Below, one piece after another: positions 42,492 to 45,838 of a stretch of 64,000 nucleotides of DNA (position 1 is its first letter; every line of letters begins with the position of its first letter). The translations under genes were made by a program, and so were the position numbers. Source of the stretch: Aeromicrobium marinum DSM 15272 (lineage in GTDB: Bacteria; Actinomycetota; Actinomycetes; Propionibacteriales; Nocardioidaceae); the NCBI RefSeq assembly GCF_000160775.2, contig NZ_CM001024.1, positions 285,016 to 349,015 on the forward strand, read 5' to 3'. The notes below the pieces were generated by a model. It made no database searches, had not been told where the DNA came from, and was given only the letters and a program-made list of their open reading frames with translations.

Positions 42492-42859
42492 GGGGCTGAT
42501 CGGTTTCGACTGTGGTCGTTCGATTCAGATGAAGCGGGTAGAGAACCCAGGGTTATCTCTTAAACGACCCCTGGAACCTTATAAGTGCCGATTCCAAGCG
42601 CACTGACTTCGCCCTCGCTGCCTGACAGCGACTGGTGAAGGGCAGACCCGGGAGCGTCCCCGTCCCGGATCGTCTGTCTCATCAAGGGGACTTGCCGACC
42701 ACGCCGTGTCACAGGGCGTGATCGGGACTTTTCTGTGACTGAGCCTGTCGGTGACGTGTCCGTCCGAGCACCGGGGCTGAGAAAAGCGTCAGGCGGACTG
42801 CACCCGGAGAAGACCTGAATCAGCGCCAGAGGACCGGGGTTCGATTCCCCGCAGCTCCA
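42492..42859 (+). ncRNA. ssrA: tmRNA
   Basis: The ribosome-rescue RNA. GGGGCTGATCGGTTTCGAC at the 5' end pairs with CAGCTCC at 42852-42858, forming the tRNA-like acceptor stem. The T arm is GGGGTTCGATTCCCC. The resume codon is GCC at 42587 and the tag reads ADSKRTDFALAA, stop at 42623-42625; it ends in the ALAA degron recognised by ClpXP. The sequence after the discriminator A is CGA, so CCA is probably not encoded and must be added. Length of 368 nt is normal for actinobacteria. Confidence 0.96.
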
Positions 42860-42916
42860 CGACATGACGAGGCCCCACCACCCCGGTTTTGGGTGGTGGG
42901 GCCTCGTCATGTCGTG
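42858..42916. terminator. 26-bp perfect hairpin at the tmRNA 3' end
   Basis: Arms 42858-42883 and 42891-42916 are fully complementary over 26 bp around the 7-nt loop CGGTTTT. The left arm begins on the last two tmRNA bases. It acts as a terminator and may guide 3' processing. Confidence 0.88.
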
Positions 42917-43086
42917 ATTCAGGCCGGTGAATCGAGTGGGCCCCCGCTGCGAGCTCTGCGAGCAGTAGGGGATCCCCGCAGCTGTCGTGAATCAGGTCGG
43001 TGAATCGAGTGGGCCCCCGCTGCGAGCCTTGTTGCGCAGTAGGGGATCCCCGCAGCTCCAGGGGATCCCCGCAGCTGCACGACATG
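42911..43086 (+). repeat. Tandem repeats derived from the tmRNA 3' region
   Basis: Unit 1 (42911-42983, 73 bp) and unit 2 (42984-43057, 74 bp) are nearly identical except for a variable middle (about 42955-42963 against 43028-43036). Each ends GGGGATCCCCGCAGCT. A third partial copy of this end is at 43061-43076, followed by CACGACATG, which also follows the tmRNA gene. The ends resemble the tmRNA T-arm/acceptor sequence, as expected of attachment-site remnants. Confidence 0.8.
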
Positions 43087-43161
43087 CCCCGCCCCGTACC
43101 CGACCCGTATCCTTGCGTCCTGTCCTGCTGGACCCCCGCCGCCCGACGAGGAGCCCGACCG

Positions 43162-44760
43162 ATGGACCTCAGCCTGCTCCTCACCGTGCCACTGGTGTGC
43201 GGACTCGCGGCCCAGGCGGTGCGGGTGCCGCCCATGGTGGGATTCCTGGCCGCCGGGTTCATCCTCAACGCGTCGGGCGTGCGGTCGTTCGAGGCCCTCG
43301 ACGTCGCCGCCGACGTGGGTGTCACGCTGCTGCTGTTCGGCATCGGTCTGAAGCTCGATCCGCGCACCCTGGTGCGGCGCGAGGTCTGGGTCACGGCCAC
43401 GGTGCACATCGTGGTCTCCACCGTGGTGGCGGTGGCGATGATCGCCGCCCTCGGGCTCACGGGGCTCGGCCTGGTCGCCGGGCTCGACTGGCGCGGGTAC
43501 GCGCTGATCGGCGTGGCCCTGTCGTTCTCGAGCACGGTGTTCGTCGTCAAGCTGCTCGAGGCGACCAACTCGACCCAGGCCTTTTTCGGCCGGACCGCGA
43601 TCGGGGTGCTGGTCATCCAGGACATCGTGGCCGTCGCCGTGCTCACCGGCAGCACCGGCGAGCTGCCCAGTCCGTGGGCCCTGAGCCTGGTGTTGGTCGT
43701 GCCCGGTGCGTGGGTGGTCCGGTGGGTCATGGGGCGGCTCGACCACGGTGAGGTGCAGGTGCTGTTCGGGGTCGTGATCGCGCTCGTGCCCGGTTACCTC
43801 CTGTTCGACGCGGTCGGGCTGAAGGGTGACCTCGGCGCGCTCGTGCTCGGCATGCTGCTGGCCTCGCACGAGCGGTCGGGCGAGATCCGCAGGGCGATCT
43901 TCGGCCTCAAGGAGTTCCTGCTCGTCGGCTTCTTCGTCTCCATCGGGTTCGTCGGTCTGCCGTCCGCGAGCGACCTCCTGGTCGCCCTGTTGCTGGTGCT
44001 GCTGCTCGTTCCGCTCAAGGCCGTGGGCTTCGCGGTCCTGCTCGACCGGACCGGGTTGCGGCACCGCAGCGCGGCGCTCGTCGCCGCGTCCCTGGCGAGC
44101 TTCTCGGAGTTCGGCCTGATCGTCGTCGACAACGGGGTCACCTCCGGGGTCCTGGAGGAGGACTGGCTGGTGGTGATCTCCACCGCGGTGGCGTTCAGCT
44201 TCCTCGCCTCCACCGCGGCCAACACGGGCCGCGAGCAGCTGGTCACGCTGGCGGCACGGTGGCTCCCGGCCAAGGACCCGGACCGGCTGCTCGACCAGGA
44301 CCGGCCGATCGACGTGGCCCACGCGCAGGGGGTCGTGATCGGCATGGGCCGGGTCGGTCGGTCCGCGTACGAGCAGCTGGTCGACGAGCACGGACTCGAG
44401 GTCGTGGGCGTCGACGCCGACGGTGAACGGGTCGAGAGCCTGCGCGAGGCCGGCCTCCAGGTGGTCGAGGGCGACGCGAGTGACCCCGAGTTCTGGATGC
44501 GACTCACCGCTGCGGACGACCTCGACCTCGCGGTGCTGGCGATGCCGTTCCACGGCGCCAACCGCACGGCCATCACACGGCTGGAGGAGAGCGGCTTCGG
44601 TGGGGTGGTGGCGGTCGTGGTGCAGTTCGCCGACGAGGCGGCCCAGGCCCGTGAGCACGGTGCCGACATCGTGCTGCACCTGTACGACGGTGCCGGCCAG
44701 ACGCTCGCCGACGACGCCGCCGGGGCGGCCGGCCTCGGCACCGACCGCCCCAACACCTGA
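43162..44760 (+). CDS. Kef-type monovalent cation:proton antiporter with TrkA-N domain
   Basis: A 532-residue protein: about 12 membrane helices of the CPA2 Na+/H+ exchanger domain (residues 1-375, with GVALSFSSTVFVVKLL and GVLVIQDIVAVAVL), then a cytoplasmic Rossmann domain with GVVIGMGRVGRSAYEQL near 390 for NAD(H) gating. It resembles KefB/C potassium efflux systems. GAGGAG lies 8 bp before the ATG. Its stop is 4 bp from the convergent ice-binding gene. Confidence 0.9.
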   Translation: MDLSLLLTVPLVCGLAAQAVRVPPMVGFLAAGFILNASGVRSFEALDVAADVGVTLLLFGIGLKLDPRTLVRREVWVTATVHIVVSTVVAVAMIAALGLTGLGLVAGLDWRGYALIGVALSFSSTVFVVKLLEATNSTQAFFGRTAIGVLVIQDIVAVAVLTGSTGELPSPWALSLVLVVPGAWVVRWVMGRLDHGEVQVLFGVVIALVPGYLLFDAVGLKGDLGALVLGMLLASHERSGEIRRAIFGLKEFLLVGFFVSIGFVGLPSASDLLVALLLVLLLVPLKAVGFAVLLDRTGLRHRSAALVAASLASFSEFGLIVVDNGVTSGVLEEDWLVVISTAVAFSFLASTAANTGREQLVTLAARWLPAKDPDRLLDQDRPIDVAHAQGVVIGMGRVGRSAYEQLVDEHGLEVVGVDADGERVESLREAGLQVVEGDASDPEFWMRLTAADDLDLAVLAMPFHGANRTAITRLEESGFGGVVAVVVQFADEAAQAREHGADIVLHLYDGAGQTLADDAAGAAGLGTDRPNT

Positions 44761-44764
44761 CCCC

Positions 44765-45838
44765 TCAGTCGGCGCGGGAGCGACGCAGCGCCGTCGCGCC
44801 GGCGAGCAGGGCCACCAGGCCGAGCGGCAGCAGCAGGAGCTCGGGTCCGCCCACCCGGGGCAGGTCGGTCCGGGTCGAGGCCGGGTTGCCGACCGGCCCG
44901 GTCGAGCTGCTGGGGCCACCCGTGCGGGAGCCGGGCGGACGGGTCGAGCCGCCGGGGGTCCCGTCGACGGGGGGCGTCACCGTGCCGGTGCCTCCCGGCG
45001 GAGGCGTCGTGCCGCCGCCGTCACCACCGTCGCCGCCGTCACCACCGTCGTCGTCGCCCCCGTCGTCGTCGTCCCCGCCGGTCGTGGCGCACCCGGTGCC
45101 CGTGATGGTGTTGCTGTCCAGCGTCACCGCGCCGTTCATGGCCAGCAGCCGGCCCTCGAAGACGGCACCGGTCGTCGCCGTGATGCTCGTGTACGCGAGC
45201 ACGTTGCCGATGAAGACGCTGTTCGTGCCGAAGGTCGCCGAGCTGCCGATCTGCCAGTAGACGTTGCACGGCCGCGCGCCGTTCACGAAGGTCACGGCCG
45301 AGCCCGATGCGGTGGTCAGGGTCGACGGGATCTGGAACACGAAGATGCCGTCGGTGCTGCCCCCTCCGTCCAGGACCATCGGACCGCTGAGCAACGCGCT
45401 GCTGGTCACGCGGTACACGCCCGCCAGGTACGGGTCGTTCCGCGTGAGCTCGGCCGGCAGGTCGGCGGTCTGCGAGGCGCCGGCGGCGGTGTTGTACGCG
45501 ACAAGCAGGTCCTGCTTGGCCTGCTGCGTGACTCCGCTGCCGGCCTCGTCACCGGCCCCGGCGCCGGTGAAGACCCACGGGGTGTCGGTGCTGACGGTGG
45601 TCGTCTCGTACGAGCCGACGTTGCCGGCCAGGCTGGTCACGCCGGTGTTGGTGACGCCGGACCCGGCCAGCACCGAGAAGCTCCACGCGGTGCCCAGCTG
45701 GATGTCGGGGTCCGCGGCGTGCGCCGCGACGGCCACGAGGGCGGGCACGGACGTCAGGGCCGTGGCCGCCACCGCGGCGAGCAGGCGAGGTCGGCCACGG
45801 CGCGGAGCCGGACGGGCGGACGGACGGAGGTGCTGCAT
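44765..45838 (-). CDS. Secreted ice-binding-fold (DUF3494) protein with wall-anchor-like tail
   Basis: A 357-residue protein with a signal peptide (residues 1-42), a DUF3494 beta-solenoid (about 45-245) and the family line YRVTSSALLSGPMVLDGGG...IFVFQIPSTL...NVYWQIGSSATFGTNSVFIG. An acidic Asp/Gly run, a Pro/Thr/Gly linker and then LPRVG (326-330), a hydrophobic helix and RRSRAD follow. Ice binding or adhesion is known for the fold; here the surface tail suggests cell attachment. LPRVG is not a standard sortase motif. Confidence 0.88.
   Translation of the reverse strand: MQHLRPSARPAPRRGRPRLLAAVAATALTSVPALVAVAAHAADPDIQLGTAWSFSVLAGSGVTNTGVTSLAGNVGSYETTTVSTDTPWVFTGAGAGDEAGSGVTQQAKQDLLVAYNTAAGASQTADLPAELTRNDPYLAGVYRVTSSALLSGPMVLDGGGSTDGIFVFQIPSTLTTASGSAVTFVNGARPCNVYWQIGSSATFGTNSVFIGNVLAYTSITATTGAVFEGRLLAMNGAVTLDSNTITGTGCATTGGDDDDGGDDDGGDGGDGGDGGGTTPPPGGTGTVTPPVDGTPGGSTRPPGSRTGGPSSSTGPVGNPASTRTDLPRVGGPELLLLPLGLVALLAGATALRRSRAD

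Follow-up and report, generated by a model that had tools for sequence, protein, structure and literature searches.

Gene-matched repeat modules behind ssrA and tRNA genes in Aeromicrobium and other Actinobacteria

The ssrA locus of Aeromicrobium marinum

The window analysed here is a 64,000-nucleotide stretch of the 3.08-Mb, one-contig genome of Aeromicrobium marinum DSM 15272, and its ssrA gene, encoding a tmRNA with the tag ADSKRTDFALAA, lies at 42492-42860 on the forward strand according to ARAGORN and at 42492-42862 according to the Rfam tmRNA family, RF00023. In the Rfam search of the window, the gathering score was reached by tmRNA alone, and no further RNA family was found. The last ~20 nt of ssrA, TTCGATTCCCCGCAGCTCCA, form the copied end, hereafter X. 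Behind the gene stands its tail (42858-42916), a perfect 26-bp hairpin that begins on the final tmRNA bases and is terminator-like, without a T run, its arms being a perfect 26-nt inverted repeat (42858-42883 and 42891-42916).

The tail is followed by tandem units on the same strand. The left arm of unit 1 (42917-42935) is a decayed inverted copy of the tmRNA end, judged by the relatives at loci L095 and L123, which keep full, exact 20-nt inverted arms, and its exact part is GAATCGA alone (42929-42935), the reverse complement of the T-loop sequence TCGATTC. Its core (42936-42974), located by the core pattern, reads GTGGGCCCCCGCTG, hairpin, CAGTAGGGGATC and folds into one hairpin (z -1.3), and its right arm (42973-42983) is a direct copy of the tmRNA end, TCCCCGCAGCT. 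Unit 2 comprises a decayed left arm (42984-43008) with GAATCGA at its end (43002-43008), a core found by the same pattern (43009-43048, fold z -1.7) and, by reading, the direct copy TCCCCGCAGCTCC (43047-43059). The array closes with a third, partial end (43061-43086) found by repeat search, in which GGGGATCCCCGCAGCT is followed by G and a copy of the first tail bases, CACGACATG; the tail, the right arm of unit 1 and the left arm of unit 2 were delineated by repeat search and reading. In the window units, the shared core sits between each GAATCGA and each GGGGATCCCC.

Direct repeats run through the whole block. A 45-nt repeat starts at 42910 and 42983 (96%, spacing 73), a 22-nt repeat at 42962 and 43036, with a further copy at 43055 at 86% (spacing 74 and 19), and the tmRNA end together with CACGACATG (42846-42875) recurs at 43066-43095 (83%). 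The structural observations of the earlier note thus hold, namely the hairpin on the last tmRNA bases, the two 73/74-bp tandem units with a third partial end, CACGACATG after both the gene and the last repeat (42858-42866 and 43078-43086), and unit ends resembling the tmRNA end, which are indeed copies of its 3' end. What had escaped it is the inverted T-arm piece GAATCGA and the core before each GGGGATCCCC; only direct ends had been noticed because the inverted arm of the window has decayed to that heptamer.

A Kef-type antiporter gene (PF00999, PF02254) begins, probably with the ATG at 43163, ~75 bp past the end of the tandem block, and an ORF at 44765-45838 on the reverse strand looks by eye like a secreted ice-binding-like protein of the DUF3494 type. 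When the own genome was searched with a 179-bp query, the ssrA locus was the sole full-length match; next best was a 21-bp match to the tmRNA end, and the others measured 14-32 bp.

Recurrence of the module and its match to the resident gene

The same layout recurs at many genes and in several genera. Its order is the 3' half of a gene, a tail hairpin, an inverted copy of the T-arm end, a hairpin core of ~40-80 bp belonging to one of a small number of shared families, and the 3' end of the gene once more in direct orientation, frequently with the first tail bases; the module is about 73-125 bp long and holds no gene. At ssrA, X and the tail hairpin are followed by an arm that closes with GAATCGA, then by GTGGGCCC or GTCGGGCCC, a hairpin that varies, GGGATC and the direct copy of X. 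Such a module stands behind ssrA in 23 of 30 Aeromicrobium-group loci, which are the own locus and those of 29 relatives, taken as best matches from a search in which 56 of 58 genomes gave a match. As for the remainder, one locus has the left part alone, five have none beside ssrA, and in one the contig ends too early. Unit number differs between loci, the direct copy reaches into the tail by 9 nt in the window, 8 nt in L043 and more than 40 nt in L193, and G005 and G028 form a pair of genomes of which one has the module between copies of the ssrA end and the other lacks it there.

Modules with this kind of core (type A) were assigned to a gene in 57 cases, after L055@7 had been left out of 58 as a regex artefact: tmRNA 29, Gly-CCC 21, Ala-CGC 2, Ala-TGC 2, Gly-TCC 2 and Val-TAC 1. 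They are found behind tRNA-Gly(CCC) in relatives and in the own genome (L129), tRNA-Gly(TCC) in Buchananella and G008, tRNA-Ala(CGC) in Nakamurella silvestris, tRNA-Ala(TGC) beside tRNA-Ile in G021 and G014, tRNA-Val(TAC) in G035 and G021, and the tmRNA gene of Actinobacteria bacterium 69-20, and at every such locus X differs according to the gene. A second core family, type B, has the same layout with the elements GGATTYG, GGAGGAG, hairpin, GACGG and TCC. It occurs in the own genome behind Ser-GCT, Ser-GGA and Arg-TCT, in relatives behind Ser-TGA and others (G005) and Leu-CAG (G018), and beyond the family behind Ser-GGA in two genomes of another family. Type A is therefore known at six gene kinds and type B at five others, ten of them besides ssrA. 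In the own genome, tRNA-Phe(GAA) (G000:C1:2310427 region, L148) has 18 nt of its end copied exactly at +124 together with its terminator, and the arrangement encloses a third kind of core.

Placement behind such genes is close to a rule. Among 60 type-A modules from Aeromicrobium, Nakamurella and other actinobacterial loci, from which six further matches of the class and viral scans had been excluded as chance, 54 have the gene just upstream, four lie at a contig edge and two are orphans. Both orphans, L114 (G032, ~984) and L040 (G009, ~1503), carry end copies of the tRNA-Gly(CCC) kind without an intact upstream tRNA, and L040 retains a tRNA 3' remnant. Across the class, the pattern matched 9 of 393 genomes, six of which are Aeromicrobium including the own genome, and in the other three no tRNA was found near the match. 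In a scan of tRNA and tmRNA genes for a copy of the gene's last 18 nt (at least 15 matches, within 350 nt downstream), 6 of 46 genes of the own genome, 6 of 48 in G005 and 2 of 47 in Nakamurella had a copy of their own end, while cross comparisons between genes gave 0.72% of 2070 in the own genome and 0.7-0.8% over the three genomes. One G005 match, at tRNA-Pro (15/18 at +263), lacks a core, and one Nakamurella match is a second tRNA-Met gene; neither was taken as a module.

Each module matches, in both of its copies, the gene behind which it stands. The right arm fits its own gene above the mean of the other gene types in all 57 type-A modules. For the left arm, the summed score was 641, against a mean of 521 (s.d. 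14, maximum 566) with permuted hosts and 0 of 2000 permutations reaching it, a significance that is overstated because related species are not independent. This signal comes mostly from Gly(CCC) (20 of 21) and Gly(TCC) (2 of 2). The left arms at ssrA (n=29) are decayed for the most part; compared with the best other host, 4 were better, 15 equal and 10 worse, and in the same full-arm test the left arms of both Ala kinds and Val were beaten by the best other host.

The T-loop heptamer is more telling. GAATCGA is present in 46 of 52 modules with TCGATTC hosts and in 0 of 14 others, and GACTCGA in both modules with TCGAGTC hosts and in 0 of 64 others. In type B, the exact heptamer was found with 3 of 8 TCGAATC hosts, 2 of 4 TCAAATC hosts and nowhere else, and by a looser pattern all 9 modules pair GGATTTG with TCAAATC or GGATTCG with TCGAATC hosts. 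The T-loop alleles are thus mirrored in the modules, with no foreign case. As the search patterns predetermine part of the arms and the species are related, the contrasts within types and within genomes weigh most.

Origin of the modules

The subtype of core in the window, consisting of CCCCGCTG, a hairpin and CAGTAGGGGATC, was found in 3 of 49 genomes of the genus, behind ssrA here and behind tRNA-Val in G035 and G021, and outside the genus behind tRNA-Ala in Nakamurella and tmRNA in Actinobacteria 69-20. Such patchy spread, together with gene-matched flanks, suggests from a handful of loci that the core passes from gene to gene and from host to host, and the flanks would then be re-made from the resident gene.

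Bacterial mobile DNA lands by preference in the 3' ends of tRNA and tmRNA genes, and in some relatives islands have landed at ssrA. In G005, a C-terminal remnant of a large serine recombinase (PF13408, 31.3 bits) lies ~1 kb from ssrA and adjoins a copy of the ssrA end; the clipped serine-recombinase ORF scores 21.9 bits, under the cut-off. Within this island (L181, 700-8400), an rve transposase ORF splits the remnant, and genes for two methylase/restriction-like proteins of Eco57I type are also present. G028 has the same left end straight at ssrA, with the module displaced by ~4.2 kb. In G008, ~17 kb separate ssrA and its module from a second module array that is bounded by ssrA-end copies; this insertion (L096) includes a 4007-aa ORF, RHS/YD-repeat-like by eye. 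The recombinase zinc-ribbon family stands beside ssrA in 1 of 49 genomes, namely G005. Elsewhere in the own genome, a PF00589 integrase (G000:C1:2250227-2250963; L155, L182) starts ~150 bp downstream of tRNA-Lys(TTT) on the opposite strand, and it belongs to an integrated element.

The earlier note had taken the repeats for duplicated att cores left by successive integration and excision at ssrA, and had proposed comparing the junction across relatives and looking there for integrases. Its premise that the ssrA 3' end serves as an integration site is borne out in some relatives, where the comparison revealed the islands of G005 and G008. That phages or islands using an ssrA or tRNA 3' end as attB left these repeats as site-specific integration scars is nonetheless unlikely. 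It would agree with the likeness of the direct gene-end copies to attR, with the islands at ssrA and with the integrase behind tRNA-Lys, but it leaves the inverted arm and the shared hairpin cores unexplained, the modules are geneless and only about 73-125 bp long, and no PF00589 integrase was found within 100 kb of ssrA in any of seven genomes, the recombinase remnant at ssrA in G005 being of the serine type. Moreover, 50,697 phage records gave no module match, plasmids gave two weak partial matches and no convincing module, and six IMG/VR pattern matches, considered as virus-borne attP sites, were rejected since they lie in coding-like DNA without a nearby tRNA. The note itself held that the same units at many non-ssrA loci would speak against att scars in favour of a general repeat. 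The layout at ten other gene kinds largely supplies that refutation and disposes of scars peculiar to ssrA. A general dispersed repeat does not take their place, as the own genome has no other full-length unit and the modules stand nearly always at tRNA or tmRNA 3' ends, with copied ends that differ by gene.

Two further readings assign the module a structure that is recognised or selected. In the one, arm, core and copy would fold like an attC site, and a putative recombinase, perhaps the host Xer, would insert the cassette behind tRNA genes. The topology of complementary outer arms, a variable centre and tandem units is like that of integron attC, one shape-reading enzyme could serve many gene ends, and G005 has modules at ssrA, Gly and Ser genes despite just two PF00589 matches in all. 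We regard this as improbable, as the modules have no candidate enzyme associated with them, the complement of the T-loop finds its pairing partner in the gene and not in the direct copy, and the folds are ordinary: the z-scores are -1.32 and -1.71 for window units 1 and 2, and -0.81 and -1.32 for the others. Fold energies in this range (z -0.8 to -1.7) also lend no energetic support to a structural role in RNA or DNA, which bears on the other reading, in which the module is a selected RNA element, be it a terminator, a processing signal or an rtT-like small RNA, whose arms are kept in step with the gene by compensatory mutation. The presence at ssrA in 23 of 30 loci, the conservation of cores across families and the small RNA, RttR, that by annotation is released from analogous repeats in E. 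coli would fit such selection. Yet the arms range, depending on the locus, from exact 20-nt copies to near loss, the unit number varies, and at ssrA the 26-bp hairpin that precedes the module probably ends transcription, which makes a selected RNA a poor prospect too.

The reading preferred here, which we hold with middling confidence, is that the window repeats are two-and-a-fraction copies of the recurrent module and that they arose by copying with strand switches around a core that spreads. Both copies would stem from snap-back (strand-switching) DNA synthesis at the end of the gene, with the palindromes of tail and T arm seeding the switch; recombination at the near-universal T-arm sequence may spread cores between genes, whereupon new flanks would be re-made from the resident gene. 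Units could be gained or lost through recombination between direct copies, by which the gene end would always be kept intact, and islands may land now and then in the same gene ends. This scheme is preferred because it covers the gene-to-tail palindrome, the copying of tail bases, the gene-specific flanks and the varying unit number. The participation of an enzyme is conceivable, since some relatives have recombinase-bearing islands at these very ends.

More tentatively, and with some doubt, the modules might represent an unrecognised class of minimal mobile DNA, to which the tyrT repeats of E. coli would belong as a remote example. Such DNA would be a hairpin core of ~40-80 bp which, across the Actinobacteria, inserts itself behind tRNA and tmRNA genes, takes on the end of the local gene in inverted and direct copy, and forms tandem arrays. 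A family of modules with flanks re-made from the gene they follow would offer many natural replicates through which the origin of such repeats becomes testable, as does their role in guarding against or attracting integration. Furthermore, a copy of a tRNA end near a tRNA gene is alone no proof of an integrated island.

Comparison with known systems

A literature search of titles and abstract openings returned no description of these modules, which share features with several known systems. Like att sites in tRNA and ssrA genes, they show a direct duplication of the 3' end, an intact gene and a boundary in the T arm; unlike them, they have no integrase gene or cargo, carry an inverted copy and share cores at unrelated genes. 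Integron attC sites are imperfect palindromes in tandem arrays, and so are the modules, whose arms, however, follow the neighbouring tRNA gene and not a fixed motif. REP/REPIN and MITE sequences are short palindromic non-coding repeats with a sequence shared genome-wide, whereas the modules are few, lie nearly all at tRNA or tmRNA 3' ends and take their flanks from the resident gene.

The closest likeness is to the tyrT/tyrV-rttR repeats of E. coli (rtT RNA, tpr); PMC2965389 cites Bosl and Kersten 1991 on rtT. There, 178-bp units stand in tandem behind a tRNA gene, as the modules do here, and close with the tRNA-Tyr 3' end in direct orientation (19/20 nt at +158, +336 and +514). Ahead of the hairpin-rich core, each has an exact 10-nt inverted piece, GGGGAAGGAT, at +59, +237 and +415, a length reached in 6 of 2000 shuffles; a 20-nt inverted match scoring at least 13 was not found. 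An inverted gene-end piece thus precedes the core in all three settings; its exact stretch measures 7 nt in the window, 10 nt in E. coli and as much as 20 nt in relatives. The E. coli repeats differ in their unit of 178 bp against about 73-125 bp, in their core, in their confinement to one operon where the modules serve many genes, and in their annotated small RNA and short ORF. To our knowledge, the origin of the tyrT repeats is unexplained. Since no Rfam family other than tmRNA was matched in the window, the likeness is one of architecture, and the modules may be regarded as a variant of tyrT/rttR-type repeats by layout, not by common descent.
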